Origin: Populus alba
Lineage: Eukaryota > Streptophyta > Magnoliopsida > Malpighiales > Salicaceae
Direction: 5' to 3'
DNA length: 64,000 bases
Assembly (NCBI RefSeq): GCF_005239225.2
Contig: NC_133297.1
Coordinates: forward strand, 17,658,147-17,722,146
Shown: positions 23,531 through 63,791 of the stretch, piece by piece
How positions within the stretch are numbered: the first letter of the stretch is position 1
How the letters are laid out: every line of letters begins with the position of its first letter
Notes under the pieces: model-generated
Seen by the model: the letters and a program-made list of their open reading frames with translations, nothing else
Database searches by the model: none
Told to the model about the DNA's origin: nothing
Made by a program: the position numbers and the translations under genes

Positions 23531-26500
23531 TTTTTTTTTGTTAGATAATAGGGCGGATATCCCAATTCAATTTTTTTAAAAAAGGACGATATGTAGTTTG
23601 GCATACCTAAATGCTGGCTACTGTGGTGGGTGGAAAATCAGGGTGCTTTGTTTTTGTTCTCTAAAAACCAATATTCAACCACAAATACCTAGAAAACACT
23701 ATCATAACCTTGTTCAACCCATCCTTAAGTTTTAAAAGCGCAAAAAACCGGTTCAAAACAAAGAATCAACCTAGAACCTAATTTCTTTTATAAATCAGAT
23801 ATGTTTTTTAAGCTAGTTTCAAGGTAACAAAACATCTAATTCAAACTCTTCTCATCATATAAAACTATTTGGAATAAAAATATAATATTTTGGTGGTCGA
23901 AATTGTTGAAACAACACATTTCTTTCTCTAGGCTAAATTCTATCAATTGCCTCTCTCTCCTCTCATCTAATATAACTGAAAATGATGAAATAGAGATTTA
24001 GTACCAAAATAAATATTTGAAAAACACAAAAGACTGATCAACTTATAGCAAAAAAATTTGGGGGATAAAAATATACTTTACCAACAAATTTAAATGTGTC
24101 ACCCTGTTATTTGTGCATTGCACTTTAGTCACTTGTCTTGCAATTCAACCCTCACCCTAAAAATACATGCAATTGGATTCTAATTTTGGCTTAATTGTCT
24201 AAAATAAATGTTTGAGGTTCAAATTGATTTTTTTTTCAAAATTCCACTATTGTAATCCACGGTAAAATAAAAGGGTAAACAATGGTATAGCTACAGTAAA
24301 AACGCCAAATCATTTAGCTTCAAAGATAATTAATAAACAAAATCTATTCAACAACAAAGTGAAGTTAATTGAGCAAAAACGATAGTGTAAAGTACTAAAA
24401 CTAATTATAATTATGTATTAACTCCAATAAATTGATTTGAAGGTTAAAAATGCATACTCTCTTTTTTTAATTTCAGAGTCCGGATTTTAAGATTAACAAT
24501 CATGATAATTTATTAAATTACTTTAAATACGTGAGACCAGATAGAAAAATCATTTTATATTTTAAGATCGTTGGAGAGAAACATCCTTGAAATGATTTGA
24601 ATTAGTTTTAGTTAATGCACAATTCAAAAATAATCTTTACCGTTGAATAAATAATTATAATTATGTGTCATAATCTTTTTTCTTGGATGAGAAAATTAGC
24701 ATTATCCGAAACTCCTAACAAATTGAACTATATCCTTTTAGTTTTTAATTCAAATATTATTTTGTGGCCATTATGAATATTTAACTAATAAATTTCCCCA
24801 CATCAAATAATTTTTTCCATGAAAGGTTATACATTAAAAGTTGTATATTTTAGATATGTTAACCACCCATCAGTTACATGTATATTTTTTTTCATGGAAA
24901 AGAAGAATTAAAAAAAATATATATATGTTTTTATAGAGAAAATAAAAGTGGTATATGATCTTACAAAAAAACCTGTGATTTCTCCTTTAAGTACACATAT
25001 TAAGGACTTGGATAAACTAGAATATGTTTGGGAGTGTAATTGCGGTTGTTTTTTAAAGTATTTTTCATTCCAAAACACATTAAAATAATATTTTTTTTAT
25101 TTTTTAAAAATTATTTTTGATAAAAGCACACCAAAATGATTTGAAAACATAAAAAACATATTAATCTGAAGAAAAAAAATTTCAATTTTTTTTAAAACGC
25201 TTACAAAACTCAATGCCAAATAGAATTATCTCAAATGATTTTTTAACATTTTGGTATCTTCTTTTTCTTCTTTTTTTGAAATTTGATTGTTATGGCTGGA
25301 TGTATGTTTTATTGGGATTTTGCTTGCAATTTATTAAAACTTTATGATGATATTGCTAACATTTGGTATAAGAGCAGTATCTCTAATTTAATTTTGGTTT
25401 TATTTAAATTTCTGTTTGAGATCTCTTTGATTATTGTTCATAGTTTATCTATTAAATTATGTATATTATGTATGTTGAAACTCTATGCAAGCTAGATTTC
25501 TGTTGTTGTTTTACTTAAATATTGTATGCCTATATTTTACTCAAATATTGTATGCATATAAATATATTAATTAATTGCTTTTATTACAATTTACATCATT
25601 AATTGTTTATCTACAATGATTGCTTTTTTCAATTTATGTAATCTATATCTATTGCTAGATGATGATTTTTTTGTGAGTGAATTTTCACTTTTAAAAAGAT
25701 TGCCATGCAAATATTAATGTGCATCTTTAGACTATTAAGTATGTGTTTGGTATAAGAATGCATAATATTTTTTAAAATTGTTTTTTAATTGAAAAAATAT
25801 TTTTTTTATTTTTTATATCAACACATTAAAATCATAAAAAAAATATCAATTTGATATTTTTCAAGCTAAATGTACTTAGTACAATTCTAAATGAAAAAAA
25901 CAAATGGGTTTAAGTGTTATTGGAATAGCAATAATAGGCTATTGGGAATTGAATTTGAAACCTTTAAATTAAAGGATTAAAACATTTATTTTTGGCTACT
26001 ACTTGATTTTGATAGATCTATACATGTTTTTTTACATCAATAATTATAATTAATCATGTAGCTGTGATAATTCAACCCCACATAATGATTATATATATAT
26101 ATATAAAATTGCCCACGAGTCTATTAGAAATAAAATGTTAGTCCTATAATAAAGTAATTTAAATTGCTTGTGTTATAATCTAATTCCACTTGAAAGATTA
26201 TAATGACATGTTGATTTATTTATTAGAATTAATTTACAAGGGTAAATGTTCCATATTTGGCTTCGTTACATGTTTTATTTAGTGATCTTTTATTGTTTAT
26301 TTGCAGTTATTCAAATTTTATCTGTTATGAAGTTTTTATTTTTTTAATATTGCTCCTCTAAGGGGTGATAATTATGCTAACCGGAAGGAAAAAGTTATCC
26401 TTAAACATTTAATGTTCCATTAAATGTTCCACATTAATGTGCATGGACCTTCATTTATTACTTTGAATGGATGAACCTCCAAAGCCCACGAAATCAAGCA

Positions 26501-27457
26501 CAAAAGATGAGAAAACATAATATGATTTTTAGGAGTGATCCAATTGCTTATGTGCTCTTAGTTTCATATTAGAAAAAAGTATTCGTGGATCCATCCCTAA
26601 TTGTGCCAAAGCGAAAGAATATCTCAATTTGAGACTTTTAACAAGGCATTAATGAGCACCCCAATAAAAAAATGTGCTTCATAAAATTTAATGGCATTCA
26701 AGGTATACATTAGCAAAGACGCGGGATATAATTGCTATATTGAATTTGGAAATTGAAAGCAATTAGCAAAGATGCTGGAAATTTAATGGCATTCAAAGTA
26801 TACATTAGCAAAGTTCAAGGATTATTTTGAAATAAATAGCCAAGTTAATCAATGGAGGGCTTAATTGAAAAGATAATTTGAAATTAGAAGTCAATTTGGT
26901 TTAAAAATAAAGATGGGAAGAACTAATGATGAATTTGCAACAAATGGTTAAATTTGAAGGAATAAATTGATTCATTTAGGGACAAAATAATAATAAAAAA
27001 AGAGATTTATGAATTTTTGAAAAAACCAAGGACTAAATTAAAAATAAAAAGATCAATTAATTCAATTTCATGCTTAAATTGAAAGAGATTTCAAGATTAA
27101 ACATCTTAATTAAATGAAATTGAAAAACTTAAAAGCCAAAGATTGTAATGAAAAGGATTAAATATTAAAGGGACCAATTAACTATTTTAATAATTTAATT
27201 ATAGTCCTATTTGTTTTAGTCCAACCATTCAATCCAATTAATCCCAATTAAGTCCAATGGAGTTAAATTAATTCAATTAAGCCCATTTAATTCAAGTTTT
27301 AGGTCCAATATTTTTTCAATTGATTGATTTTAGTCCAGAATCCAATTAATCAATCATAGCAATTAATCACAAATTTCAATATCAATATTCTAGCTCTTAA
27401 TTCAAGATTTCCAACCTTTGTTATCAATATTTAGCACTAATTTGCAGTCTTGATTTG
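23531..27457. repeat. Left flank of Athila A, first copy of a duplicated segment
   Basis: From TTAGATAATAGGGCGGA onward this stretch is repeated at 49927-53859 with only scattered substitutions and small indels, right up to the Athila insertion point. It has no coding domain. The part from about 26830 to 27450 is rich in 'AATTGAAAAG', 'GGACTAAATT' and 'AGTCCAAT' words resembling the 17900-18500 LTR sequence in opposite orientation, so it may be LTR debris. Confidence 0.85.
25025..25222. mobile_element. Small TIR element (MITE-like), copy in the first duplicate
   Basis: Ends TGTTTGGGAGTG and CAATGCCAAATA pair as imperfect terminal inverted repeats (9 of 12). The interior carries the T-rich then A-rich pattern AACACATTAAAATAATATTT ... 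CACACCAAAATGATTTGAAA. The same element lies at 51433-51631. Confidence 0.55.
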
Positions 27458-27763
27458 TGACACGACCAAAAGATTGATGTCTTCTCCCAAGTGCAGGAGT
27501 GTCGAAGTAATAAATAACCGGCAAGACCGGGGTCGAACCACATAGAGGTTAATTGTACAAATTATAAATAACAATAATACAACAACAACAACAATAATAA
27601 CAACAATAATAACAACAATAATAATATTATTAATAATAATACTCAGTACGTGGCGTTGTTATACCTGAGAATGATCTAAAAGATCGGGTCACAGGTTTCC
27701 AGCCTATATACTGAGTTTATGAAAAGATGAAAGAGATATATTATATAATATAAACAGAATGTA

Positions 27764-27810
<47 letters not shown>

Positions 27811-27812
<2 letters not shown>

Positions 27813-28352
27813 TTAACAGTGATAATAATAATAACAATAAAAAGAGGAGGAAAAAATTAATGAGAACTTTGAGATGGAAGATTAATGTAAGGATTAAACA
27901 ATGATAAAAATAAATGTCAAGGTTAGAGGATCCACCAATGGTATTTCAAACAAGTATAATATAAACTCTTATTATTCAACCGGAAACCACACACAAAGGA
28001 GGTTCCAATTGGCCGATTTGTCATTAACAGCTCATTATAAATTATTAACATGATCATATTAATTATCTCATTTAATAATAATATTAACAGTGATAATAAT
28101 AATAATAACAATAAAAAGAGGAGGAAAAATTAATGAGAACTTTGAGATGGAAGATTAATGTAAGGATTAAACAATGATAAAAATAAATGTTAAGGTTAGA
28201 GGACCCACCAATGTATTTCAAACAAGTATAGTATAAACTCTTATTATTCAACCGGAAACCACACACAAAGGAGGTTCCAATTGGCCGATTTGTCATTAAC
28301 AGCTCATTATAAATTATTAACATGATCATATTAATTATCTCATTTACATAAC
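27811..28352. repeat. 271-bp tandem duplication inside the Athila A 3' LTR
   Basis: The block beginning TATTAACAGTGATAATAAT at 27811 recurs at 28082 and extends to about 28352. It holds AAAAAGAGGAGG, CACCAATG, CAACCGGAAACCACACACAA and CATGATCATATTAATT in each unit. The join is at an (AAT)n run. Element B and the solo LTR have one unit, so the duplication is specific to this LTR. Confidence 0.9.
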
Positions 28353-28868
28353 ACGAAACTTTTAAATATTATCAGGAATTCATGATGTTAATTGATGTTA
28401 ACAACAAATCAAGTACCTTTCATAGCCCAGGTGTAGGTAATACCATACGGTTGGGCTATGAGAGTGCCAAGCATTTGTTGTACCAAGTATTATACAACAC
28501 AAATCTAGATTAACCATTTAACAAGCAAGGTATTAAGAATTAGTAAGATAAAAAGATAAGACATGTTAATATTAAACATTAAGGTTCATGTTGAGTTTAT
28601 ACCATACTTGTTCTTACACCATTAGTGTAACCTTTTCACCTTGACATAATAAACTTAGCCAAACATAATGAAGAAGAGAAACATAAATAAATAAAACAAG
28701 AACATAAATAAGATACAAGTTAACTAAGGAAAGGAAAGGAAATGAAAAGCATAAACAAGATATTAATTAAAGCAAAACTTAAGAATTACAAAAAAAAATA
28801 TAAAGAGAGAAATAAAGAGCATGAACTTGATTTGAACAACCAAGCCCCTAAATACATGGCAAATGCCT

Positions 28869-28880
28869 CCTTTTATAGGC
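28869..28880 (-). promoter_or_regulatory. TATA box of Athila LTR promoter (element A, 3' LTR)
   Basis: GCCTATAAAAGG on the minus strand, followed by AGGCATTTGCCATG. The same motif occurs in the 5' LTR remnant (about 35033-35044), in element B (about 54903-54914) and in the solo LTR on the plus strand (about 48420-48431). It marks the U3/R border. Confidence 0.65.
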
Positions 28881-29554
28881 CAAAATTCAGAATTATTGAT
28901 TTGATGACTAATTGTTGAGTGGGTGACCAACTTTTGACTTGGTGAAAATCCTTATCTTCTTGTCTTAATAAAACAAAAATGCTAGCATCAGAACTGGGTC
29001 CAGATGTCCAAATGAAAGTTCTAGGAAATTATCTTAGCTTTCTAGGAAAAAAACAATGAGGTCATTTGGACTTCTATAACTCAAGATATGGGTTGAACAC
29101 TGAACAGTGTCTGGGCTGCAGGACAGATTTAGACTTCTTCGTTGTTGTTATAATTTGGACTTGAAAACGGCCTTCTTAGATCTTGATGTCCAAATGAAAG
29201 TTGTAGGCCTATGTCTTACTGAATTTGTGTAAAAATTTAAGGTCATTTGGACATCTAGAACTCGAGATATGACCCAATTACCGAACAATGTTCTAGTTTG
29301 GACTGCACCAACATCTCTTTTCCAAGTTTCACCCTCTCTTTATCTTCACAAATTTCAGTAGTTGAATTCATCAATCAATACTTTGATTTATGTGATAGAC
29401 CTGCATTTAAGATGAACATTTACCATATATTAGGGTATTTTATAGTATTAGACTTGTTATTATAAAACATGCTTTAGTTAAGGAGTTATTGATACTTTAA
29501 GTGCAAAATGATGATATAAAACCTTGATAAGTATGCACTTTTAAGTACTAATCA

Positions 29555-29565
29555 CACCCCCCAAC
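29555..29565 (-). other. Polypurine tract of Athila A
   Basis: The minus strand reads AGTTGGGGGGTG directly before the 3' LTR start TGATTAG. It is the RNase H-resistant primer for plus-strand DNA synthesis. An identical tract occurs in element B (55589-55599). Confidence 0.85.
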
Positions 29566-30758
29566 TAGCTTATTACTAGTCCCTAGTAATTAAAGCGTTA
29601 AACTAGAAAAACAATTTGCAAATTCCATAAAGCAAGGCATTCATCATTCAACTTACTTTAATATATCCAGATAAACAAAACTCTCATTAAATTCATATAT
29701 CTGCTCAATACCTCTTAAACAAGATATTACTAAACCTTTCTTTTGTGCTCAAAATATCAACATATAGTTATGGGGCTTTACTTGGAAGAAAAACAATTTT
29801 TTGCTCTAATGTTTAAGGCTAACTTCCTTAGGTTGAGATTATGATTATTTTTTTTTCTTTTATTTATTTATTTATTTATATACACATGCAACTTAAAACA
29901 CAATGCATCTTTAACCCATGTAACGAGTTTTAGGCTAATGACTCCTAGACCAGTTGGTCTTAGGGCATTAGGTGTTGAGACACCCCTACAAGCTTAGCAA
30001 CTCGGGTTGCAGATACTGATACAGAGATAGTGCAATGTTTGATTCCCTTAAGCTTTTCTCCTCAACCTATGTAACAAGCGTTGGGCCAATAGCTCCCAAG
30101 TCAGTTGACTTTAGGGTATTAAGTGTTAAAACACCCCTTCGGGCTTAATTGCTTAGGTTAGGAAGGCTACGAAACCAAACTTATCTACCTTTTTATTATC
30201 ATTGTTTTTTTTTTTTTGCAAATTATATACTATCCCTTTCCCTTAGTTGTTACCTTTAACAAAAGAACATAAATAATGTAATGATCTGATGTGCAACCCA
30301 CAATCATATGTTAAAGCGTGTGTGTGAAAATGAAGATTTAAAAATACTTGTTAAATGAGCATATGAGCAGAATCAAGTGCTACCAATACGAGAGTTTGTA
30401 AGCCTGAATATTTCAAGAAGTATTCTGATAGACCTTGTTAAGAATGTTTACTAAGATGCGTCTCAAGAGTCACTTTATCAAAAGAACTCCTTTTACTCTG
30501 CCATCCTAGTAACAACAGTTTTTGCAAATAGTTTATGAAATAGAAAACACAGGTTTTTTTTTAATTTTTTTTAAAAATATCAATTACTATCTTTTCCCCC
30601 CAACCAAAATGAGACATTGTCCTCAATGTCTTAAGGTAGAAAGATATAATATAGAAGACATAACCTGAAATAACGAACACTGACAAACCTGAAACACACT
30701 TAAACAAATAATAAGAAATAGTAAAACATAATAATAAAACCAAAAAGACACAAAGTTT
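29566..30758 (-). other. 3' non-coding region of Athila A, with a duplicated hairpin module
   Basis: About 1.2 kb between the LOG stop and the polypurine tract, with no protein domain. Two related blocks about 150 bp apart (29913-30003 and 30063-30152) each contain an inverted repeat of form NNNNNN-GT-NNNNNN: AGACCA/TGGTCT in the first, AAGTCA/TGACTT in the second. Each is followed by a second small inverted repeat (GGTGT..ACACC; GTGT..ACAC). Element B has the same region (about 55600-56789). Confidence 0.6.
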
Positions 30759-31412
30759 TTACAAACGAAGTCTCAAATCCAATCTAAGTTTTTTACGGCT
30801 TTCCTTAGTTGACCAATTTATGCGACTCATGGAGGGATTAATTACAGGGATGAAAGATTGTAATTGGTCAATCAATTGTTCAGCAGTAGCAGCAAAGATT
30901 ATGATTTGTTGTGCTGAAGATGTTAGAAATTCCTGTTCCACAGCATGATCAAGAAAAGACAACAACTTATCATAAAAACCATTAACATTTAACAAACCTA
31001 TGGGTTTATGGTGAATGTGCAGTTGGGCCCAAGAGGAAATATGAAAGATCTCTTCCAATGTGCCCAGACCACCTGGTAAGGCAATGAAGGCATCAACATG
31101 GTTAAACATTGCATTCAGTCGATCAGACATTGTGGGGATCTGTAATTCCTCTCCAATTGTTTTTCCAATGATGTCCCCTTGTGCTAAAGCTTTGGGGACA
31201 ACCCCCAAAACTTGACTACCTCCTAAAGATGCAGCTATTGACACTCCCCCCATTAACCCAAGGCTGCCTCCTCCATACACTAAATGAATCTTTCGCTCAG
31301 CTAGTACCTGACCAAGATAATTTGCTGATTCTAAAAACTCTTTTTCTTTCCCAGGACTTGATCCATCGAAAACACAAATATTGTTTATGTGATTACTTGA
31401 GGAACCTGCCAT
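30759..31412 (-). CDS. LOG-family cytokinin riboside 5'-monophosphate phosphoribohydrolase, retrotransposon cargo
   Basis: LOG enzymes convert cytokinin riboside 5'-monophosphates directly to active free bases. From ATG 31412 the ORF encodes 217 aa, the usual plant LOG length. The in-frame upstream ATG at 31499 only adds a hydrophobic 29-residue extension and is less likely. Visible motifs: NICVFDGSSPG (12-21; plant LOGs usually have Cys where Asp16 is), LVYGGGSLGLMGG (44-56), Arg98 in MSDRLNAMF, and the hallmark ALPGGLGTLEE (111-121), then SWAQL and PIGLLNVNGFYD (137-148). The Arg and motif Glu needed for activity are kept. The style resembles divergent LOG10-like paralogues. It is intronless although plant LOG genes are normally multi-exon, so capture from a processed RNA is likely. 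It sits in the sense orientation between an RNA-virus-like ORF and the polypurine tract. Element B holds a broken copy at 56790-57444. Enzyme activity is untested. Confidence 0.9.
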   Translation of the reverse strand: MAGSSSNHINNICVFDGSSPGKEKEFLESANYLGQVLAERKIHLVYGGGSLGLMGGVSIAASLGGSQVLGVVPKALAQGDIIGKTIGEELQIPTMSDRLNAMFNHVDAFIALPGGLGTLEEIFHISSWAQLHIHHKPIGLLNVNGFYDKLLSFLDHAVEQEFLTSSAQQIIIFAATAEQLIDQLQSFIPVINPSMSRINWSTKESRKKLRLDLRLRL

Positions 31413-31665
31413 TTCTACACATGTCTGTATTTGATGAATGTATGGGTTGAGTAGAAATGAAGGGAAGGAAGAGAAGAAGATGAGAAATTGAAAATGCAAT
31501 CATACCACCTATATGTAGGCCATCTGTAGTCTCACACACACACACACACTCTCTCTTTCTCTTTATTAATTATTTATTTTGAAAAAGCATATATATGTAC
31601 AGGTAGTTGTGATTATGGCTCACATTTTCCCTTGGTTTTACATCCAAGAACGGCTTAAACGCCCT

Positions 31666-32214
31666 CTATGGGTCGGGGATAGGCTTCCCATCCAGTTTTT
31701 TTAAAAACTGGCAAACAGGGTCTTTTTTAGTCAGATTCCCAAGACTAAGTCGAGCATGTTCTTTATGGAATTGGGGCCATAAATCATAAATTGCACGATG
31801 CACATCTCCACTAGGGTGCGTCTCAAGAGTCAATAGAAGATTATCTAAAGACCCCTTACTCAGGCCATCCTTAATGAATTGTATTTTATCTTCACGGTTT
31901 ACAGATACCATTCCTAAAGAATGACATGTTGCATTACAAGTCCATATGACACATTTGTGACAGACTTGCAGTCGTTTTGCACGACGTTTCTTTGCAAAAG
32001 TACTTTTACTTGTTCCAGGCATGTATGAAATGAAAGAATTGGAGGACTCACCTGATAACCGAACCTTTGCTTCAATCAGCCAACAAATATCTTCAGGAAT
32101 TCCATGATTCATTAACAACCTCAATCTCGCACATCTAGCACGGTAAATTTTTGTAATCGCATTTTGAGGCAGAGCGGGAAAATACTTTTTCGATTTTTCA
32201 AGAGTGGTGTCCAT
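31666..32214 (-). CDS. Cysteine-rich nucleic-acid-binding-like protein, resembles carlavirus-type NABP; retrotransposon cargo
   Basis: 182 aa from ATG 32214; an upstream in-frame ATG at 32274 would add a 20-residue hydrophobic leader. Seen: an N-terminal helical region with IYRARCARLRLLM and GIPEDICWLIEAKV (23-51), then STFAKKRRAKR (71-81), then a Cys cluster C85, C88, C93, C97 with H98, then VSVNREDKIQFIKDGL, and a C-terminal extension of about 65 residues rich in Leu and His. The order (short N-terminal domain, Ser/Thr-aromatic-Ala before an Arg/Lys run, CxxC finger, then a short 'N..K...FI..G' segment) resembles the small cysteine-rich nucleic-acid-binding proteins at the 3' end of carlavirus and related plant RNA virus genomes, some of which affect RNA silencing. 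The Cys spacing is tighter than I expect for that family, and the C-terminal tail is extra. The viral assignment is inference and could be convergent. The ORF lies between integrase and LOG on the same strand. Confidence 0.6.
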   Translation of the reverse strand: MDTTLEKSKKYFPALPQNAITKIYRARCARLRLLMNHGIPEDICWLIEAKVRLSGESSNSFISYMPGTSKSTFAKKRRAKRLQVCHKCVIWTCNATCHSLGMVSVNREDKIQFIKDGLSKGSLDNLLLTLETHPSGDVHRAIYDLWPQFHKEHARLSLGNLTKKDPVCQFLKKLDGKPIPDP

Positions 32215-32425
32215 TTTCAAATGAGAATTGGATGAGAGATTCAAAGAAAGAAGAAAGAGCAGAGAATTGCACAATTATATATACCGATATCAGTTATCAT
32301 GGAAAACTGAAAGAACCGACTTAAAAGTCACAGAGTACCGCTATCCGCCATTTGACCGGGGTGAGAGAAACTAGCAAAACAAAAGATACACCAAAACATA
32401 ACACAAAACAATGTGAGAAAAAGAA

Positions 32426-33640
32426 TCATTCTTTATATACAGGATCACTCAATTCAATAGAGTCATTTTCAACTGAAAAATTGTCAAAATAAACTTTCAA
32501 CCGATGCCCATTTACCTTGAAAACATTTCCATTCTTTGGATTTTCTATATCACAGGCCCCATATGGATACACATGTTTCACAATAAAAGGACCGCTCCAT
32601 CTTGATCTTAGTTTTCCAGGAAATAAATGGAGTCGAGAATTATAAAGCAAGACTTTTTGACCAACATTGAATGTTTTTGTCAGTATTTTCTTGTCATGAA
32701 ACTCTTTGAGTCTTGCTTTATTAATTCTTGAATTGTCATATGCATCATTTCTTATTTCCTCAAGCTCATTTATTTGTAATTTTCGCAGCTGACTAGCATC
32801 ATCAATGTTCGAATTGGAAGCTTTAATAGCCCAATAAGCTTTATGTTCAATTTCCACAGGCAAGTGATAAGGTTTTCCATATACTAGTCTATAAGGTGAC
32901 ATACCTAATGATGTTTTATACGCAGTTCGATAAGCCCAAAGTGCATCATTAAGTCTTAAAGACCAGTCTTTCCGATTAGGGTTCACCGTTTTCTCTAAGA
33001 TCTGTTTAATCTCCCTATTAGCAAGTTCTACTTGTCCACTCGTCTGAGGGTGATAAGGGGTGGCAACTTTGTATGTGATTCCATATTTTTTCATTAAAGA
33101 CTCAAATGGCTTGTTGCAAAAATGTGTTCCACCATCTCTTATCATGGCTCGAGGGATTTCAAATTGACTTAAAATGTTTTCTTTCAAAAACTTTATCACT
33201 GTTTGTGATCATTGGTTCGACTTGGAATTGCCTTTATCCATTTTGAAACATAATCTACTGCGACCAATATGTACAAGAAACCAAACGATGGAGGAAATGG
33301 ACCTATGAAATCTATACCCCAACAGTCAAAGATCTCAATGACAAGAATAGGATTTAAAGGCATCATGTGACGTTTCGAAATAGATCCTAACTTTTGACAA
33401 TTTTCACAAGTCTTACAGAATGCATGTGAGTCTTTGAACATGGTGGGCTAGTAAAATCCACTTTGTAAGATTTTTGCAGTTGTCTTTCTTGATGAGAAAT
33501 GACCCCCACATGCCTCAGAATGACAAAATTTAATGACACTACTTACCTCATTGTCAGGAATGCATCTTCGAAATATTTGATCAGGACAATATTTGAATAA
33601 ATAAGGGTCATCCCAATAAAAGTTCACTTCATTCAAGAAC
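32426..33640 (-). pseudogene. pol: Integrase of Athila A (frameshifted)
   Basis: DDE integrase. The N-terminal zinc region ([16 protein letters not shown] ... [11 protein letters not shown]) is followed by [10 protein letters not shown] (first Asp), [14 protein letters not shown] (second Asp) and [15 protein letters not shown] (Glu). The C-terminal domain has [22 protein letters not shown], with the GPF motif, and ends [11 protein letters not shown] ... VYKE at TGA 32426-32428. This is classic Athila. Lesions: a 1-T deletion near 33197 (element B has TTTT where A has TTT), a TAG replacing Trp at about 33448-33450, and indels near 33560 and 33630. The catalytic triad is intact but the frame is not. 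Confidence 0.9.
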
Positions 33641-33865
33641 TTTCTTTTGTCTTGGGGTACTCTAATGAGCTGACAATTGTCCTGAAACAAGAAAATTAAC
33701 AATATTAGCAAACCAAGGCATCGTAGAGACAGAAAATAAAGATTCATCAGGAAAGTAGTCATCGATTGGTGTGATGTCAGATCTCGAATCGGTTGTCAAT
33801 CTTGACAAATGATCCGCGACAACATTTTCGGTGCCTTTCTTGTCTTTGATTGTGATATCAAATTC

Positions 33866-34223
33866 TTAAAGTAACAAAATCCACCGCACCAATCTAGCCT
33901 TAGAATTTTTCTTAGAGAGAAGATATTTCAATGCTGCATGATCACTAAAAACAACAACAGGTGAGCCAACAAGATAAGATCTAAACTTGTCACATGCAAA
34001 TACTACTGCAAGTAATTCTTTTTCAGTGGTAGTGTAATTCATTTGAGCACTATTTAAAGTTTTACTTGCATAGTAAATCACATAAGATTTCTTATCTTTT
34101 CTTTGTCCCAAGACAGCACCCACGACATAATCACTAGCGTCACACATTATTTCAAAAGGTAGTGACCAATCAGGAGGTTGAATGACAAGAGCAAAAGTAA
34201 GCAAGCTTTTAAGTTTAACAAAG
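33866..34223 (-). pseudogene. pol: RNase H fragment of Athila A, truncated at a deletion junction
   Basis: Reads [27 protein letters not shown] ... [40 protein letters not shown] ... [16 protein letters not shown], a Ty3-type RNase H with the catalytic Asp of CDAS and the Glu of EKELLA. Homology with element B stops at about 34223 (AACAAAG), where filler DNA and then LTR sequence follow. RT, protease and gag are gone. A stop replaces Gln or Glu in ILLLQEF (about 33867). Confidence 0.88.
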
Positions 34224-34250
34224 TTTAACTTTTAAGCTTTTAAGCTTTTA
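34224..34250. other. Deletion junction with short filler DNA
   Basis: Between the RNase H fragment and LTR sequence lie about 27 bp made of repeated TTTTAAGC words, apparently copied from the adjacent AAGCTTTTAAGTTTAAC. This is typical of error-prone end joining with templated insertion. The LTR side resumes at a (TAA)n run. Confidence 0.75.
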
Positions 34251-35708
34251 ATAATAATAATAACAATAAAAAGAGGAGAAAAAAATTAATGAGAACTTTG
34301 AGATGGAAGATTAATGTAAGGATTAAACAATGATAAAAATAAATGTCAAGGTTAGAGGATCCACCAATGGTATTTCAAACAAGTATAGTATAAACTCTTA
34401 TTATTCAACCGGAAACCACACACAAAGGAGGTTCCAATTGGCCGATTTGTCATTAACAGCTCATTATAAATTGTTAACATGATCATATTAATTATCTCAT
34501 TTACATAACACGAAACTTTTAAATATTATCAGGAATTCATGATGTTAATTGATGTTAACAACAAATCAAGTACCTTTCATAGCCCAGGTGTAGGTAATAC
34601 CATACGGTTGGGCTATGAGAGTGCCAAGCATTTGTTGTACCAAGTATTATACAACACAAATCTAGATTAACCATTTAACAAGCAAGGTATTAAGAATTAA
34701 TAAGATAAAAAGATAAGACATATATTAAACATTAAGGTTCATGTTGAGTTTATACCATACTTGTTCTTACACCATTAGTGTAACCTATTCACCTTGACAT
34801 AGTAAACTTAGCCAAACATAATGAATAAGAGAAACATAAATAAATAAAACAAGAACATAAATAAGATACAAGTTAACTAAGGAAAGGAAAGGAAATGAAA
34901 AGCATAAACAAGATATTAATGAAAGCAAAACTTAAGAATTACAAAAAAAAAATATAAAGAGAGAAATAAAGAGCATGAACTTGATCTGAACAACCAAGCC
35001 CCTAAATACATGGCAAATGCCTCCTTTTATAGGCCAAAATTCAGAATTATTGATTTGATGACTAATTGTTGAGTGGGTGGCCAACTTTTGACTTGGTGAA
35101 AATCCTCATCTACTTGTCTTAATAAAACCAAAATGCTAGCATCAGAACTAGGTCCAGATGTTCAAATGAAAGTTATGGGAAATTATCTTAGCTTTCCAAG
35201 AAAAAAACAATGAGGTCATTTGGACTTCTAGAACTCAAGATATGGGCTGAACACTAAACAGTGTTTGGGCTGCAGGACAGATTCAGACTTCTCCGTTGTT
35301 GCTATAATTTGGACTTGAAAACGGCCTTCTTAGATCTTGATGTCCAAATGAAAGTTGTAGGCCTATGTCTTACTGAATATGTGTAAAAATTTGAGGTCAT
35401 TTGGACATCTAAAACTTGAGATATGACCCAATTACCGAACAGTGTTCTAGTTTGGACTGCACCAACATCTCTTTTCCAAGTTTCACCCTCTCTTTATCTT
35501 CACAAATTTCAGTAGTTGAATTCATCAATCAATACTTTGATTTATGTGATAGACCTGCATTTAAGATGAACATTTATCATATATTAGGGTATTTTATAGT
35601 ATTAGACTTGTTATTATAAAACATGCTTTAGTTAAGGAGTTATTGATACTTTATGTGCAAAATGATAATATAAAACCTTGATAAGTATGCACTTTTAAGT
35701 ACTAATCA
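34251..35708 (-). repeat. 5' LTR remnant of Athila A
   Basis: Matches 28090-29554 closely to the terminal TAATCA at 35708, followed by target duplication ATTTG. The inner part (including the primer-site-proximal end) is lost in the internal deletion. A TATA box equivalent lies at about 35033-35044 on the minus strand. Confidence 0.9.
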
Positions 35709-45520: not shown

Positions 45521-46296
45521 GTCATGAATTATCTCTATAAAAAACCTTTTTCTTCATAAAGCACATGATCTCATAGCATTTGAAATCTTTTACTTAAAAG
45601 AACTTTTTTTACGCATGACTAAGGAGATGACTCCATCAATTCCCAAATTGGAGGGAACCAAACCAAATTTAAACACCACACTGGGGATAAAAAAAAAAAA
45701 AAAACAGCACATAAAGGTCTATAGTAAGCCAAAGCCCAAAGGGATATCATCATAAAACTTCTGAAATGCCTTTTATAAGAATGGCTTAAAACAAAATACA
45801 GTGATTGCATTAAAAGTTTTGGTTTTCATGAACAAAACCAGATCTTTTGAGTTTTCCTTTGAAAATAATTTCTTAAAAATGGAAAAGGCAATTAAAACAT
45901 CGACAAAAGTATAATAAAAATAATACTTAATGGAGCAAGAAAAGGCCCCATAAAGAACCAGAGATCTCTTCACCAAGAGGATAGGAAGTATAGTACGTGG
46001 AGCATATTTCGGTTCAAGAGGACGAGTTAGACAAACAATTGGAAACAAAAGCTTAAGAAGTCTACAATAGAAAAGGGGACCTATGTTTACAAAATATGTA
46101 CAAAAAAAAAAAAGGAATGCTATATTGTCATAACTCTAACTTGGTAGGAGAAGGTGTAATGAAAGCCAAATAGTTCCAAGTTTTTGGGAAACAATTGAGG
46201 TACAAAATCTCAGGTCAACGGAACTATGAAAAAAAAAAGGAATTGTGAATCAACACTACTTCATTTCCTCGAGGTAAGATGTTTTCTTTTGAAGTT
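45521..46296. other. 3' non-coding region of the Tat/Ogre-type element
   Basis: No domain recognised. It follows integrase and precedes the minisatellite. Contains A-homopolymers (about 45691-45707, 46101-46113). Confidence 0.5.
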
Positions 46297-47050
46297 TGAG
46301 ATGGGTAGGTCACCCAATTTTGATACCATTTCTTAGAAAAGTGTTTAGTTTTCTAAGAATTTTAAGATGGGCGGGTCACCCGATATTGACACAATTTCTT
46401 AGAAAAACATGGAGTTTTCTAAGAATGGAGTTTTCTAAGAATTTTAAGATGGGCAAGTCACCCGATATTGAGACCATTTCTTAAAAAAGCATGGAATTTT
46501 TCTAAAAAATCTTAAGATGGGCAGGTCACTCGATATTGAGACTATTTTTTTAAGAAAAAGCATGGAGTTTTCTAAAAATCTTAAGATGGTAAGGTCACCC
46601 AATATTAAGACCAATTTTTTTTAGAAAAAGCATGGAGTTTCCTAAGAATCTTAAGATGGGCAGGTCACCTAATATTGAGACCATTTCTTAGAAAAACATG
46701 GAGTTTTCTAAGAATTTTAAGATGGATAGGTCACCCAATATTGAGACCCTTTCTTAGAAAAGTGTAGAGTTTTCTAAGAATGTTAAGATGGGCAGGTCGT
46801 CAGTTATTGAGATCGTTTCTTAGAAAAGCATGGAGTTTTTCTAAGAATTTTAAGATGGGTAGGTCACCTAATATTGAGACCATTTCTTAGAAAAGCATGG
46901 ATTTTTTTTACAATTTTAAGATGAGTAGGTCACCCAATATTAGGACCATTTCTAGAAAAAAAAACATGGATTTTTTCAAGAAATCTTAAGATAGCAGGTC
47001 ACCTGATAGGGAGACCATTGTTTTAGGAAAAGCACCAAGTTTTATCATGA
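46297..47050 (+). repeat. Minisatellite, about 67-bp unit, 11 copies
   Basis: Unit consensus style: AAGATGGGCAGGTCACCCGA, then TATTGAGACCATTTCTTAGA, then AAAGCATGGAGTTTTCTAAGAATTTT. Units start near 46297, 46366, 46448, 46515, 46585, 46655, 46720, 46787, 46853, 46920 and 46990. Unit 2 has an extra GGAGTTTTCTAAGAAT repeat. It lies between integrase and the 3' LTR, a position where Tat/Ogre elements often carry tandem repeats. Confidence 0.92.
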
Positions 47051-52900: not shown

Positions 52901-53859
52901 CGAAATCAAGCACAAAAGATGAGAAAACATAATATGATTTTTAGGAGTGATCCAATTGCTTATGTGCTCTTAGTTTCATATTAGAAAAAGTATTCGTGGA
53001 TCCATCCCTAATTGTGCCAAAGCGAAAGAATATCTCAATTTGAGACTTTTAACAAGGCATTAATGAGCACCCCAATAAAAAAATGTGCTTCATAAAATTT
53101 AATGGCATTCAAGGTATACATTAGCAAAGACGCGGGATATAATTGCTATATTGAATTCGGAAATTGAAAGCAATTAGCAAAGATGCTGGAAAATTTAATG
53201 GCATTCAAAGTATACATTAGTAAAGTTCAAGGATTATTTTTGAAATAAATAGCCAAGTTAATCAATGGAGGGCTTAATTGAAAAGATAATTTGAAATTAG
53301 AAGTCAATTTGGTTTAAAAATTAAAGATGGGAAGAACTAATGATGAATTTGCAACAAATGGTTAAATTTGAAGGAATAAATTGATTCATTTAGGGACAAA
53401 ATAATAATAAAAAAAGAGATTTAGGAATTTCTGAAAAACCAAGGATTAAATTAAAAAATAGAAAGATCAATTAATTCAATTTCAGGTTTAAATTGAAAGA
53501 GATTTCAAGATTAAAATGAAATTGAAAAACTTAAAAGCCAAAGATTGTAATGAAAAGGATTAAATATTAAAGGGACCAATTAACTATTTTAATAATTTAA
53601 TTATAGTCCTATTTGTTTTAGTCCAACCATTCAATCCAATTAATCCCAATTAAGTCCAATGGAGTTAAATTAATTCAATTAAGCCCATTTAATTCAAGTT
53701 TTAGGTCCAATATTTTTTCAATTGATTCATTTTAGTCCAGAATCCAATTAATCAATCATAGCAATTAATCACAAATTTCAATATCAATATTCTAGCTCTT
53801 AATTCAAGATTTCCAACCTTTGTTATCAATATTTAGCACTAATTTGCAGTCTTGATTTG
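49927..53859. repeat. Left flank of Athila B, second copy of the duplicated segment
   Basis: Collinear with 23531-27457 from the first base after the gap, with scattered substitutions and 1- to 12-bp indels, up to the ATTTG (53855-53859) next to the Athila insertion. No coding domain. Small local differences: an expanded poly-T (about 51667-51689), and CATCTTAATT missing near 53510 relative to the first copy. Confidence 0.9.
51433..51631. mobile_element. Small TIR element (MITE-like), copy in the second duplicate
   Basis: Counterpart of 25025-25222, with ends TGTTTGAGAGTG and CAATGCCAAATA. Same interior layout. Confidence 0.55.
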
Positions 53860-55588: not shown

Positions 55589-55599
55589 CACCCCCCAAC

Positions 55600-56789: not shown

Positions 56790-57444
56790 TTACAAACGAA
56801 GACTCAAATCCAATCTAAGTTTTTTACGGCTTTCCTTAGTTGACCAATTTATGTGACTCATGGAGGGATTAATTACAGGGATGAAAGATTGTAATTGGTC
56901 AATCAATTGTTCAGCAGTAGCAGCAGAGATTATGATTTGTTGTGCTGAAGATGTTAGAAATTCCTGTTCCACAGCATGATCAAGAAAAGACAACAACTTA
57001 TCATAAAAACCATTAACATTTAACAAACCTATGGGTTTATGGTGAATGTGCAGTTGGGCCCAAGAGGAAATATGAAAGATCTCTTCCAATGTGCCCAGAC
57101 CACCTGGTAAGGCAATGAAGGCATCAGCATGGTTAAACATTGCATTCAGTCGATCAGACATTGTGGGGACTTGTAATTCCTCTCCAATTGTTTTTCCAAT
57201 GATGTCCCCTTGTGCTAAAGCTTTGGGGACAACCCCCAAAACTTGACTACCTCCTAAAGATGCAGCTATTGACACTCCCCCCCATTAAACCAAGGCTGCC
57301 TCCTCCATACACTAAATGAATCTTTCGCTCAGCTAGTACCTGACCAAGATAATTTGCTGATTCTAAAAACTCTTTTTCTTTCCCAGGACTTGATCAACCG
57401 AAAACACAAATATTGTTTATGTGATTACTTGAGGAACCTGTCAT
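56790..57444 (-). pseudogene. LOG-family ORF of Athila B (broken)
   Basis: Same gene as 30759-31412. The ancestral start is ATG 57442-57444. Two lesions: an in-frame TGA at 57394-57396 (the Gly of the VF.GSS motif) and one extra C in a C-run at 57277-57283 (7 C, versus 6 in element A), which shifts the frame. From 57275 down, the last 161 codons stay open and keep Arg of MSDRLNAMF, PGGLGTLEE and PIGLLNVNGFYD. Differences from element A in this part include Ile/Val, Val/Ala, Phe/Ser, Arg/His and Arg/Ser. It should not make a working LOG enzyme. Confidence 0.9.
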
Positions 57445-57741
57445 TTCTACACATGTCTGTATTTGATGAATGTATGGGTTGAGTAGAAATGAAGGGAAGG
57501 AAGAGAAGAAGATGAGAAATTGAAAATGCAATCATACCACCTATATGTAGGCCAGCTGTAGTCTCACACACACACACACACACTCTCTCTTTCTCTTTAT
57601 TAAATATTTATTTTGAAAAAGCATATATATGTACAGGTAGTTGTGATTATAGCTCACATTTTCCCTTGGTTTTACGTCCAAGAACGGCTTAAACGCCCTC
57701 TATGGGTCGGGGATAGGGTTCCCATCCAGTTTTTTTAAAAA

Positions 57742-58248
57742 CTAGCAAACAGGGTCTTTTTTAGTCAGATTCCCAAGACTAAGTCGAGCATGTTCTTTAT
57801 GGAATTGGGGCCATAAATCATAAATTGCACGATGCACATCTCCACTAGGGTGCGTCTCAAGAGTCAATAGAAGATTAACTAAAGACCCCTTACTCAGGCC
57901 ATCCTTAATGAATTGTATTTTATCTTCACGGTTTACAGATACCATTCCTAAAGAATGACATGTCGCATTACAAGTCCATATGGCACATTTGTGACAGACT
58001 TGCAGTCGTTTTGCACGACGTTTCTTTGCAAAAGTACTTTTACTTGTTCCAGGCATGTATGAAATGAAAGAATTGGAGGACTCACCTGATAATCGAACCT
58101 TTGCTTCAATCAGCCAACGAATATCTTCAGGAATTCCATGATTCATTAACAACCTCAATCTCGCACATCTAGCACGGTAAATTTTTGTAATCGCATTTTG
58201 AGGCAGAGCGGGAAAATACTTTTTCAATTTTTCAAGAGTGGTGTCCAT
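57742..58248 (-). pseudogene. NABP-like ORF of Athila B (C-terminally truncated)
   Basis: Counterpart of 31666-32214. A CAG-to-TAG change stops the frame at 57742, removing the last 14 residues. The basic run and the four-Cys/His cluster are intact, so a near-full product is possible. Replacement differences from A include Ser/Leu near the start, Cys/Arg in GIPEDI.WL, Val/Ala between Cys88 and Trp91, and Asp/Val at GSL.NLL. Function as for element A is inferred only from resemblance to viral cysteine-rich nucleic-acid-binding proteins. Confidence 0.6.
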
Positions 58249-58459: not shown

Positions 58460-59700
58460 TCATTCTTTATATACAGGATCACTCAATTCAATAGAGTCAT
58501 TTTCAACTGAAAAATTGTCAAAATAAACTTTCAACCGATGCCCATTTACCTTGAAAACATTTCCATTCTTTGGATTTTCTATATCACAGGCCCCATATGG
58601 ATACACTTGTTTCACAATAAAAGGACCGCTCCATCATGATCTTAGTTTTCCAGGAAATAAATGGAGTCGAGAATTATAAAGCAAGACTTTTTGACCAACA
58701 TTGAATGTTTTTGTCAGTATTTTCTTGTTATGAAACTCTTTGAGTCTTGCTTTATTAATTCTTGAATTGTCATATGCATCATTTCTTATTTCCTCAAGCT
58801 CATTTATTTGCAATTTTCGCAGCTGACTAGCATCATCAATGTTCGAATTGGAAGCTTTAATAGCCCAATAAGCTTTATGTTCAATTTCCACAGGCAAGTA
58901 ATAAGGTTTTCCATATACTAGTCTATAAGGTGACATACCTAATGATGTTTTATACGCAGTTCGATAAGCCCAAAGTGCATCATTAAGTCTTAAAGACCAG
59001 TCTTTCCGATTAGGGTTCACCGTTTTCTCTAAGATCTGTTTAATCTCCCTATTAGCAAGTTCTACTTGTCCACTCGTCTGAGGGTGATAAGGGGTGGCAA
59101 CTTTGTATGTGATTCCATATTTCTTCATTAAAGACTCAAATGGCTTGTTGCAAAAATGTGTTCCACCATCACTTATCATGGCTCGAGGGATTCCAAATCG
59201 ACTTAAAATGTTTTCTTTCAAAAACTTTATCACTGTTTTGTGATCATTGGTTCGACTTGGAATTGCCTTTATCCATTTTGAAACATAATCTACTGCGACC
59301 AATATGTACAAGAAACCAAACGATGGAGGAAATGGACCCATGAAATCTATACCCCAACAGTCAAAGATCTCAATGACAAGAATAGGATTTAAAGGCATCA
59401 TGTGACGTTTCGAAATAGATCCTAACTTTTGACAATTTTCACAAGTCTTACAGAATGCATGTGAGTCTTTGAACATGGTGGGCCAGTAAAATCCACTTTG
59501 TAAGATTTTTGCAGTTGTCTTTCTTGATGAGAAATGACCCCCACATGCCTCAGAATGACAAAATTTAATGACACTACTTACCTCATTGTCAGTTCGAAAT
59601 ATTTGATCAGGACAATATTTGAATAAATAAGGGTCATCCCAATAAAAGTTCTTCACTTCGTTCAAGAACTTTCTTTTATCTTGGGGTACTCTAATGAGCT
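58460..59700 (-). pseudogene. pol: Integrase of Athila B (one nonsense change)
   Basis: Open from the RNase H linker to 58634. N-terminal zinc region [17 protein letters not shown] ... CKTCENCQ; catalytic [19 protein letters not shown] and [15 protein letters not shown]; then [47 protein letters not shown] and [16 protein letters not shown]. An AGA-to-TGA change at 58631-58633 cuts off the GPF-containing C-terminal domain, which still reads through to TGA 58460-58462. The DDE triad is complete. Compared with element A this copy lacks the 1-T deletion and the TAG. A deletion near 59590 removes RCIP. Confidence 0.92.
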
Positions 59701-60542
59701 GACAATTGTCCTGAAATAAGAAAATTAACAATATTAGCAAACCAAGGCATCGTAGAGACAGAAAATAAAGATTCATCAGGAAAGTAGTCATCGATTGGTG
59801 TGATGTCAGATCTCGAATCGGTTGTCAATCTTGACAAATGATTCGCGACAACATTTTCGGTGCCTTTCTTGTTTTTGATTGTGATATCAAATTCTTGAAG
59901 TAACAAAATCCACCGCTCCAATCTAGCCTTAGAATCTTTCTTAGAGAGAAGATATTTCAATGCTGCATGATCACTAAAAACAACAACAGGTGAGCCAACA
60001 AGATAAGATCTAAACTTGTCACATGCAAATACTGCTGCAAGTAATTCTTTTTCAGTGGTAGTGTAATTCATTTGAGCACTATTTAAAGTTTTACTTGCAT
60101 AGTAAATCACATAAGGTTTCTTATCTTTTCTTTGTCCTAAGACAACACCCACGGCATAATCACTAGCGTCACACATTATTTCAAAAGGTAGTGACCAATC
60201 AGGAGGTTGAATGACAGGAGCAGAAGTAAGCAAGCTTTTAAGTTTAACAAAGGCTTTTTCACATTGTTCAGTCCATTCAAAAATATTTTCCTTTGTTAGA
60301 AGGTTACACAATGGTTTAGATATTACACTAAAATCTTTGATGAACCTTCTGTAAAAACCAGCATGTCCTAAGAATGATCTAACATCTTTAACAGATTTTG
60401 GTGTTGGTAAGTTGGTAATTAACTCGATTTTAGATTTGTCAACCTCAATTCCTTTTGATGAAACAATGTGACCAAGTACAATGTCGTTTGTTACCATAAA
60501 GTGACATTTTCCCAATTTAGTACAAGATTCTTCTCTTGACAC
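59700..60542 (-). pseudogene. pol: RT thumb/connection and RNase H of Athila B
   Basis: Reads [62 protein letters not shown] (end of RT), then [29 protein letters not shown] and RNase H with [34 protein letters not shown] and [11 protein letters not shown], and the tail [14 protein letters not shown]. It overlaps the upstream RT frame (60491-61402) by a frameshift at about 60500-60540. At its end the frame is lost near 59780-59700 (LISGQLSAH), before integrase. Confidence 0.92.
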
Positions 60543-61402
60543 CTGTTCAAAACCTTTTCCAAGTTAGTTAAACAATCATCAAATGAATCACCAAAAACAG
60601 AAAAATCATCCATAAAAATCTCAAGAAAACATTCAACCATATCACTGAATATGCTAAGCATGCATCTTTGAAACGTAGCTGGTGCATTACATAACCCAAA
60701 AGGCATTCTTCGATATGCAAAAGTACCAAATGGACATGTGAAAGTAGTCTTCTCTTGATCTTTCAATGCAATTTCAATTTGATTGTAACCTGAATAGCCA
60801 TCTAGGAAACAATAAAATTCATGACCTGCAACTCTTTCGAGGATTTGATCTATGAAAGGTAAAGGGAAATGATCTTTTCTAGTCATTGAATTAAGTTTCC
60901 TATAGTCAATGCACATGCGCCAACCAGTAATAGTCCGAGTTGGAATTAACTCATTTTTCTCATTTGTTATCACAGTGACTCCAAACTTTTTAGGTACAGC
61001 TTGGGTAGGACTTACCCATTTGCTGTCAGAAATAGAATAAATGATTCCATTATCTAGAAGCTTAATGACTTCATTTTTTACTACTTCTTTCATATTAAGA
61101 TTAAGTCTTCGTTGCATTTCTCTAGATGGTTTAGCATTTTCCTCCAAATAAATCCTGTGTGTGCAAATCAAAGGACTAATTCCTTTTATATCAGTTATGG
61201 TCCATCCTAATGCATTTTTGTGCATTTTCAGAGTTTGTAATAACTTACCTTCTTGACGTGCATTAAGTTTGGAAGAGATTATTACCGGAAAAGTTTTATT
61301 TTCTCCCAAAAATGAGTATTTGAGATTGACTGGTAACGGCTTCAAATCAAGTTTTGGTGGTTGAACACTTAAAGGTATAGACTTAATTGATCGTGATGGC
61401 AA
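60491..61402 (-). pseudogene. pol: Reverse transcriptase of Athila B
   Basis: RT fingers and palm: GWTITDIKGISPLICTHRI, NGIIYSISDSKWVSPTQAVPKK, TITGWRMCIDYRKLNSMTRKDHFPLPFIDQIL, FYCFLDGYSGYNQIEI, FTCPFGTFAYRRMPFGLCNAPATFQRCM and the catalytic box IFMDDFSVFG. All catalytic Asp residues are present. The frame ends in VTLW-stop at 60491 through a frameshift and re-enters in the next ORF. Upstream, a stop at about 61420 separates it from protease. Confidence 0.93.
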
Positions 61403-61543: not shown

Positions 61544-62130
61544 TTATAAATCATTATCATCTCCAGGTTGCTTGTAAATGTTGAAAATATTCATCTCCAA
61601 TGTCATGTTTCCAAATGATAGTTTCATCAGTCCATTCCTACAATTAATCAATGCATTAGAAGTTGCAAGAAATGGACGTCCTAAAATAACAGGAATTGAA
61701 TTACATGCTTCAACAGGTTGTGTATCCAAGACAATAAAATCTACAGGGTAAATGAATTTATCGACTTGTACTAACACATCTTTAATTATTCCTCTAGGCA
61801 CTTTTATAGATCTATCAGCAAGTAAAAGAGTTATAGAAGTTGGTTTTAAACTCACCTAGATTGAGACTTTTGAAAAACTGAATATGGAAGTAAATTCACA
61901 CTAGCTCCAAGATCAAGTAAAGCTCTTTCAATTTTATGTTCTCCAATAAAGCAAGAAATTGTAGGACAACCAGGGTCTTTATATTTCAAAGCATTATTAT
62001 TCTGAAGAATAGCACTTACTTGTTCGGCTAAAAAGGCTTTCTTTTTCACATTCAGTTTTCTCTTCACAGTACATAGATCTTTCAAAAAATTTAGCATAAT
62101 GAAGGTATCATGTTTAATAGCATCCAACAA
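61544..62130 (-). pseudogene. pol: Aspartic protease of Athila B (frameshifted)
   Basis: Two frames, joined at about 61852. The first has FLKDLCTVKRKLNVKKKAFL, PGCPTISCFIGEHKIERALLDLGASVNLLPYSVF, with the Athila-type active site DLGA. The second has LLLADRSIKVPRGIIKDVLVQVDKFIYPVDFIVLDT and SIPVILGRPFLATSNALINCRNG, with the conserved ILGRPF. Only the frameshift separates them. The enzyme would process the gag-pol polyprotein. Confidence 0.9.
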
Positions 62131-62148: not shown

Positions 62149-63791
62149 CTATTTGAAAATTTCAAGGATTTCAGAATTGTGATTGACTTTCCTTTGTTTG
62201 GTCATGGCATGAGGAAATGGAAAGTGCTGGCGGAGAATCAGTCTTTTCTTCACAATGTTCAGATTCAACCCCTTCCTTACCCTCAGAGATGACTCATCAT
62301 CTTTCTCACAAGGTTCAAGAGTGGGTTTTTCAATAACCTTACCACTGCGAAGAGTGATGACTGATTTGACTTGATCCATATGTTGGCTTTCGAAACTACT
62401 TGCATTTGCATTGTATTGCCCCTTTGGATTTTGCTGTGGTTGAGATGGAAACTTACCTTTCTCTTTGAAAACTGAGAGCAATGTGAATTTTGCAAGAGCA
62501 TCTTTAAAATTTGTCATGCTTTGAGTAAGTTGAGTGTTGATTGTCTCTTGCTTTTCAATGAATGCATGTAATGTTTCCTCAAGATTTCTTCTAGGAGGTG
62601 GAGCATAAGGAGGTGCATATCCATGAGAATTTTGGAAATTATGGTGTGCTTGAAACGGTGGCTGTGAAGTTTGTGCATTATTGTTATCACTCTTCCAACT
62701 GAAATTTGGGTGATTTCTCCAACCAGGATTGTATGTTTGCGAGTATGGGTTATGATTGGGCCTTTGGAAACTGTTTAATGCATGAGCTTGTTCATGAAGA
62801 CATTCCTTGAAAGAAGGCAAAGTTGGACAGTTATTGGTTGCATGTTCATTTGTTTCACAGATTTGACACACAATGTCTTGAACAGATTTTAATTGACCAC
62901 TTTTTTTCAATTCTAGTGCCTCGACTTTTCTAGCTAAAGATGTAAACTTGGCTTGGAGGTCATGATCTTCCCTAAGGTTATACATACCTCCACTAGATGT
63001 ATGAGGTTGGGTTTTACTTGGTGCCTCATAAGTGCCCTTAGTGTCCCAATTTTGCGCATTTTCAGCTAGCAAGTCTAAGTACTTCATTGCTTCATTAGGG
63101 TCTTTATCTTCAAAAGTTCCATTGCACATCAATTCAACCATTTGCCTATCTTTAGGTGTTAATCCTTCATAAAATTGTGAAACCAATCTCCATGTTTCAA
63201 AACCATGATGAGGGCAAGTATTAAGCAAGTCTCGATACCTATCCCAACATTGGTAAAATGTTTCTCCTGGTTTTTTAGTGAAAGTGGTGATTTGTCTTTT
63301 GAAAGAGTTGGTTCTGTGAGATGGAAAAAACTTCTTTAAAAATTGTTGTTGCATTTCATCTCAAGCACGAATGGATCCTGACCTAAGATTTTGTAGCCAT
63401 GTTTTAGCTTTATCTTTTAATGAAAAAGGAAAAAGCTTTAATCGAATGGTGTTCATGCTATAATTTAAGTCATTATAGGTGTTACAAACTTCTTCAAATT
63501 CTCTCAAATGCAAGTATGGATTTTCTAGATCTAAGCCATGAAAAGAAGGTAAAAGTTGAATAATGCCTGGCTTAAAATTAAAATGGGATGCATCATGAGG
63601 GAAAACTATGCATGAGGGTGCACTTGTTCTTGTAGGATTCATGTGGTCTCTAAGTGTCCTAACACGGTTATTCTCATTATTCTCATTATTTCATTATGAA
63701 GTGACTGGTTATCTTCTTCGGCCATATTTTCTGAAAATGATGAGGATATCCTAGAAAGTCTACCACTTAATGTACGTGACCAAACACTCAT
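62149..63791 (-). pseudogene. gag: gag of Athila B (one frameshift, one nonsense change)
   Basis: Likely start at ATG 63791 (MSVWSRTLSGRL) or at the downstream MAEEDNQ. A frameshift lies in the AATGAG-repeat region near 63680-63700; the frame resumes as NNRVRTLRDHMNPTRTSAP. The capsid region is FKPGIIQLLPSFHGLDLENPYLHLREFEEVCNT ... LKLFPFSLKDKAKTWL. TGA replaces Trp at about 63358-63360, then QQQFLKKFFPSHRT, TFYQCWDRYRDLLNTCPHHGFETW and LVSQFYEGL. A zinc knuckle CQICETNEHATNNC (about 62835-62880) has exact CX2CX4HX4C spacing. A Pro/Gln/Asn-rich tail follows. Confidence 0.92.

Follow-up and report, generated by a model that had tools for sequence, protein, structure and literature searches.

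Insect long interspersed nuclear elements (LINEs) that carry a viral superfamily 1 (SF1) helicase provide a case in which a retrotransposon took a domain from a positive-strand RNA virus, with a proposed function in silencing suppression (PMC5563155). Among plant viruses, the nucleic-acid-binding protein (NABP), or cysteine-rich protein (CRP), of the carlavirus Potato virus H (PVH) suppresses local silencing and that of Potato virus M (PVM) suppresses both local and systemic silencing (PMC3689765, PMC10219291), and the CRP of a mandarivirus, citrus yellow vein clearing virus (CYVCV), suppresses local silencing (PMC12172455). Here we describe an open reading frame (ORF) of this type in a 64,000-nucleotide stretch of Populus alba DNA (contig NC_133297.1, hereafter the window). 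On balance, it is probably a conserved accessory gene of a Ty3/gypsy long terminal repeat (LTR) retrotransposon, likely of the Athila lineage, that matches flexivirus NABPs, was acquired from a virus long ago, and encodes a predicted RNA-binding silencing suppressor.

The poplar ORF shares with the PVH protein a basic motif followed by a four-cysteine finger, a profile match, and the best match in the BFVD viral structure library; as in carlaviruses, it forms a small ORF of its own that lies downstream of the structural and replication genes. In contrast to the carlavirus gene, which is 3′-proximal and overlaps the coat-protein gene, the ORF lies between integrase and a LOG-type gene followed by the 3′ LTR of a chromosomal retrotransposon, and its product has a conserved C-terminal part (approximately residues 121–182) beyond the Pfam match. 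The mandarivirus CRP (223 aa) is likewise long and contains a nuclear localization signal (NLS) and zinc-finger motifs (PMC12172455), but these are C-terminal and its gene overlaps the coat-protein gene, whereas the finger here is centrally placed and the ORF stands by itself. The insect LINE helicases are the nearest precedent, although those elements are animal non-LTR retrotransposons with the helicase inside LINE ORFs, as compared to a separate small NABP ORF in a plant LTR element.

Plant Ty3/gypsy elements with additional reading frames (eORF/aORF elements) similarly have an extra ORF between pol and the 3′ LTR. A screen of 121 angiosperm genomes recovered 15 extra domains; those named in the section text (PMD, G-patch, AIR1, DUF1409, YgdH, L26, B3, ArgoL2, and 2-ODD) do not include NABP, while LOG, as YgdH, is known from LTR elements of Citrus and Populus trichocarpa (PMC9289625, citing Steinbauerova et al.). 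The Neumann survey, as described in the cited section, counted extra ORFs only from 250 codons upward and would therefore miss a 182-codon ORF (PMC6317226), and a review section describes antisense aORFs as lacking similarity to other transposable elements or viruses (PMC7264820). No report of a flexivirus-type NABP in a plant retrotransposon appeared among the papers listed by the literature searches, which mostly did not cover subscription papers.

Profile matches and conservation of the NABP ORF

The NABP ORF starts at ATG and runs without interruption through 182 codons to its stop, encoding a basic protein (computed pI 9.6) in which the run KKRRAKR (residues 75–81) is followed by the finger C85-x2-C88-x4-C93-x3-C97-H98, exactly the arrangement that an earlier note had read from the sequence and likened to carlavirus-type proteins. 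When compared with all of Pfam, the ORF matched Viral_NABP (PF05515) best (E 2.8e-5, 24.6 bits, cut-off 23), over a segment (residues 38–120) that takes in the basic run and the finger together with their flanks. The second match was Carla_C4 (PF01623), with scores considered below, and the third HIPIP (E 0.072). A second copy of the ORF in the window also matched Viral_NABP (E 3.3e-6, 27.7 bits). In an alignment that combined the window ORF with 31 relatives from the 120 listed by a first protein search, 31 of 32 members matched both viral models at E ≤ 0.1. A larger alignment joined the window ORF to 74 of 177 relatives (176–218 aa), leaving out shorter fragments and numerous Populus-type copies that are nearly identical to one another. 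The finger is more often broken in the sequences left out: the exact CX2CX4CX3C motif is kept in 67 of 75 aligned members as compared to 155 of 212 fetched relatives overall. Here, 73 of 75 members, the window ORF included, matched each viral model at E ≤ 0.01 (best 1.1e-8 and 3.7e-8), the family-wide counterpart of the profile match that the earlier note had named as support. The only other families seen among these 75 members were SHQ1 (four members, best 0.0018) and AAA_18 (one member, 0.0071). Residue-shuffled controls, which preserve composition, matched neither NABP model at E ≤ 0.1 (0 of 9), and a single one matched PORR (E 0.043).

The outcomes that the earlier note had listed as contrary to a viral affinity did not occur. 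No host zinc-finger family outscored the viral models for either window copy or for the 32- and 75-member alignments, the nearest zinc-binding model being DUF4637 (E 0.061, in copy 2 alone). Nor did any Pfam family representing known accessory ORFs of retrotransposons match. A sequence search of solved structures gave one weak match for the ORF (E 1.1) and none for the alignment, a tblastn search of phages gave two nonsignificant matches (E 5 and 9), and a tRNA scan found none.

Structure prediction, also proposed in the earlier note, gave a first model that was too poor for use (predicted local distance difference test [pLDDT] 53.6) and a second model from the 75-sequence input. The second model yielded 27 matches in BFVD at E ≤ 10, and proteins of Betaflexiviridae made up 11 of the 12 best (ranks 1–8 and 10–12; rank 9 is unnamed), led by a Potato virus H protein (E 0.19, probability 0.84). 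The 11 viruses comprise six members of Carlavirus, two of Trichovirus, one of Prunevirus, and two unclassified within the family. Foldseek scoring also uses residue identity, so this search depends partly on sequence. The same model returned just three matches in the PDB, all meaningless at E 6.2 or worse.

Three protein searches at E ≤ 1 matched 605 of 663, 396 of 455, and 202 of 229 candidates, with family details drawn from the best 120 of the 605, 396, and 202 matches, respectively. A chance ORF is ruled out by the 605 matching database proteins (best E 2.1e-111). Named sources among the matches listed are Populus alba, Populus x canadensis, Xanthoceras sorbifolium, Acer yangbiense, Rhamnella rubrinervis, and Orobanche minor, spanning at least four orders (Populus, Malpighiales; Acer, Sapindales; Rhamnella, Rosales; Orobanche, Lamiales). 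A length of exactly 182 aa is frequent among the 212 fetched relatives (79), and 99 measure 180 to 186 aa. As observed in a count over the window ORF and 108 of the 177 relatives, the four finger cysteines are 91–98% conserved, and E131, H133, C168, Q169, and K173, well beyond the viral profile match, are each at least 95% conserved. Identity to the window ORF drops to 53% while length stays at 181 to 182 aa. Unselected sequence would hardly keep length and an open frame at such divergence, as judged from protein data, in which databases favor open frames. A recent one-off viral insertion is ruled out by the occurrence of the family in several plant orders together with shared element neighbors. 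Rather than being a stray viral insertion, the NABP ORF is a conserved accessory gene of long standing in a Ty3/gypsy element.

The element and its relatives in other plants

As the earlier note had placed it, the ORF sits inside a retrotransposon, between integrase frames and the LOG-type gene on the same strand and within flanking LTRs (Table 1). The integrase stop lies 211 nt upstream of the NABP ATG, and 253 nt separate the NABP ORF from the LOG ATG downstream. The 5′ LTR of this first copy abuts the RNase H region (34204–34249), and its primer site, gag, protease, and reverse transcriptase (RT) appear to have been deleted. A 10-kb duplication (23561–34223 and 49966–60252, approximately 97% identical and 26 kb apart) includes the NABP–LOG part. 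Copy 2, which belongs to this duplication, retains frames for gag, the protease region, RT, RNase H, and integrase in order, with frame breaks, and its 5′ LTR, if present, falls outside the window. Both copies look dead as elements, although the NABP ORF of copy 1 is intact.

Table 1. Positions in the window of the two element copies and of segments within the NABP ORF.
Feature	Position	Strand	Basis or remark
NABP ORF, copy 1, Viral_NABP/Carla_C4 type, intact	31666..32214	−	ORF and Pfam matches
Viral_NABP (PF05515) matched stretch	31855..32103	−	Residues 38–120, profile positions 117–202 of 227
Basic run KKRRAKR, residues 75–81	31972..31992	−	Sequence; kept across family alignments
Compact CX2CX4CX3C cluster, residues 85–97	31924..31962	−	Sequence; four Cys columns 91–98% Cys in 109-sequence alignment
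LOG-type gene, copy 1, 217 aa, intronless, uninterrupted	30759..31412	−	PF03641, E 4.5e-37; ATG 31412, stop 30759
Integrase frames, copy 1, with frame break	32426..33441	−	rve in two pieces, each under Pfam cut-off; stop 32426
Integrase H2C2 zinc-binding part	33448..33762	−	Sub-threshold Pfam match
RNase H frame, copy 1	33866..34204	−	gag, protease, and RT missing from here to LTR
3′ LTR, copy 1 (ends approximate)	28094..29554	−	97% identical to 34249–35708
5′ LTR, copy 1 (ends approximate)	34249..35708	−	LTR pair approximately 1.46 kb each
NABP ORF, copy 2, premature stop near C terminus	57742..58248	−	Comparison with copy 1
LOG-type gene, copy 2, open in its 3′ part, frame broken in its 5′ part	56790..57275	−	ORF
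Integrase, copy 2, C-terminal end broken by stop	58634..59791	−	Scores above Pfam cut-off
RNase H and RT, copy 2	59691..61402	−	Overlapping ORFs 59691–60542 and 60491–61402
Protease-region frame, copy 2	61544..61855	−	37% identical to Orobanche P0167 frame; labeled by eye, without Pfam scan
gag frames, copy 2	62149..63642	−	Retrotrans_gag match in 62149–63354 frame

The element exhibits the Ty3 order of RT, RNase H, and integrase. No chromodomain was matched up to E 1 in the C-terminal integrase ORF, and the interval between RT and integrase, the only one scanned for this feature, contained just the RT-type RNase H with no additional RNase H; angiosperm Tat elements carry an additional RNase H in this position (PMC6317226). 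Because neither a chromodomain nor, in that interval, a second RNase H was found, the element is likely of the Athila lineage by the criteria given in the cited section of PMC6317226.

Fused gene models expose the context of NABP in other plants. In Rhamnella, P0206 joins an integrase C terminus (77% identical to the window over 111 aa) to NABP (66%, 159 aa), and in P0210 a LOG domain (PF03641, E 1.8e-15; 47% identity across 115 aa with the LOG of the window) comes after an NABP-like part (61% over 179 aa), the NABP–LOG order thus being common to the window and Rhamnella. In Orobanche, P0167 joins a protease-region frame (37%, 54 aa) to NABP (55%, 173 aa). On the sequence of these models, NABP belongs, in Rosales as in Lamiales, to an element of the kind seen in the window.

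Three further features of the window were observed. The sequence TATATATAA lies at 32275–32283 on the minus strand, 61 to 69 nt 5′ of the NABP ATG, and is followed by a pyrimidine-rich tract; this is possibly an internal promoter. A related LTR in inverse orientation (47848–49195, plus strand; approximately 84–91% identical to the LTRs of the element) is apparently a solo LTR, and a tandem array with a period of approximately 66 bp spans 46283–47034.

Origin and role of the NABP protein

The interpretation that we favor is that a flexivirus gene would have been taken up by the retrotransposon long ago, with transfer presumably from virus to element, and that its product would bind RNA through the basic run and a predicted zinc finger. 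Such binding would blunt silencing of the element, a role carried over by analogy from the PVM, PVH, and mandarivirus proteins; given homology, this is the most likely role, at roughly an even chance. Several observations weigh against this interpretation. Where the earlier note looked to both viral families, Viral_NABP held but Carla_C4 fell short of its 20.9-bit cut-off in copy 1 (E 0.0036, 17.7 bits) and in copy 2 (17.0 bits), a cut-off that relatives P0206, P0167, and P0136 exceed. The likeness to carlavirus proteins, borne out in the order of basic run and cysteine cluster and in the profile match, does not extend to finger spacing (CX2CX4CX3C as compared to CX2CX9CX4C in PVH, a loop of four residues rather than nine; PMC3689765) or to length (182 aa as compared to 97 aa in PVH and approximately 100 aa in carlaviruses). 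The structural comparison likewise favored betaflexiviruses collectively but not individually, with none of the 27 BFVD matches reaching E ≤ 0.001 from a mediocre model (pLDDT 62.9), and no relative turned up in three scans of viral contigs. Within the plant family, the finger motif departs from the exact form in 57 of the 212 fetched relatives; of 30 viewed, many appear by eye to be decayed Populus-type copies and a few are gene models without the finger altogether. The finger of P0210 is also disrupted, and the Pfam scan gave this model no NABP profile match, although it carries PF01623 as a precomputed label. Between the two window copies there are six replacement and two silent codon changes, one of the six being the premature stop, as expected of dead copies. 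Finally, not every carlavirus protein is a suppressor: p12 of chrysanthemum virus B (CVB) shows no local silencing suppression and is a transcription factor causing hyperplasia (PMC3689765, PMC10219291).

This activity of p12 suggests a different role, in which the poplar protein would act in the nucleus as a transcription factor, reprogramming host cells and, jointly with the adjacent LOG enzyme, promoting their division where the element is active. An NLS-like basic run adjoining the finger and a LOG gene next door, in both the window and Rhamnella P0210, are consistent with such a function, but the NABP–LOG pairing was found in just one other species here, and we regard this role as unlikely. 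To a similar degree unlikely is a protein that shares descent with viral NABPs but serves as a nucleocapsid-like chaperone or transport factor for the RNA or cDNA of the element itself. The protein is basic, and its compact finger is nearer in spacing to the retroviral knuckle, CX2CX4HX4C, than to the PVH finger; however, a CX2CX4HX4C knuckle is already present in the copy 2 gag frame (62149–63354), such that a second nucleocapsid would be unneeded, and neither the NABP ORF nor its aligned relatives matched any gag or nucleocapsid family in Pfam.

Two of the alternatives concern origin rather than role. The ORF could be native to plant retrotransposons, from which flexivirus ancestors took their 3′-terminal gene, as might be suggested by the size of the plant family and its spread over at least four orders, and by the low homology of cysteine-rich viral proteins between genera noted in the cited section of PMC12172455. 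Structural matches from several betaflexivirus genera suggest instead that the viral family is broad; nothing bears directly against this reverse transfer, which we nonetheless consider quite improbable. Convergence, with a small basic protein and a cysteine cluster merely resembling viral NABPs, would account for the modest E-values of the window copies, the different finger spacing, and the want of any single significant structural match. It is very improbable in view of the agreement of 73 of 75 aligned members with both viral models, which shuffled sequences do not reproduce, and of a structure search favoring the same viral family.

It is a standing question how LTR retrotransposons persist in plants in the face of RNA silencing, and most of their extra ORFs have no recognizable relatives. 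The NABP ORF is an extra ORF whose viral relatives have tested functions, in silencing suppression and transcriptional activation, and which is kept across plant orders and lies beside a cytokinin enzyme; an element that acquired it from a flexivirus would be the plant LTR counterpart of insect LINEs with viral helicases. The idea of retrotransposon-borne, virus-type suppressors thereby becomes directly testable in plants. More tentatively, and with considerable doubt, a rosid and asterid retrotransposon lineage may carry a two-gene cassette directed against its host, composed of a flexivirus-type silencing suppressor and a cytokinin-activating LOG. If so, the element would hide its RNA from the plant while keeping host cells dividing, leading a virus-like life inside the genome.
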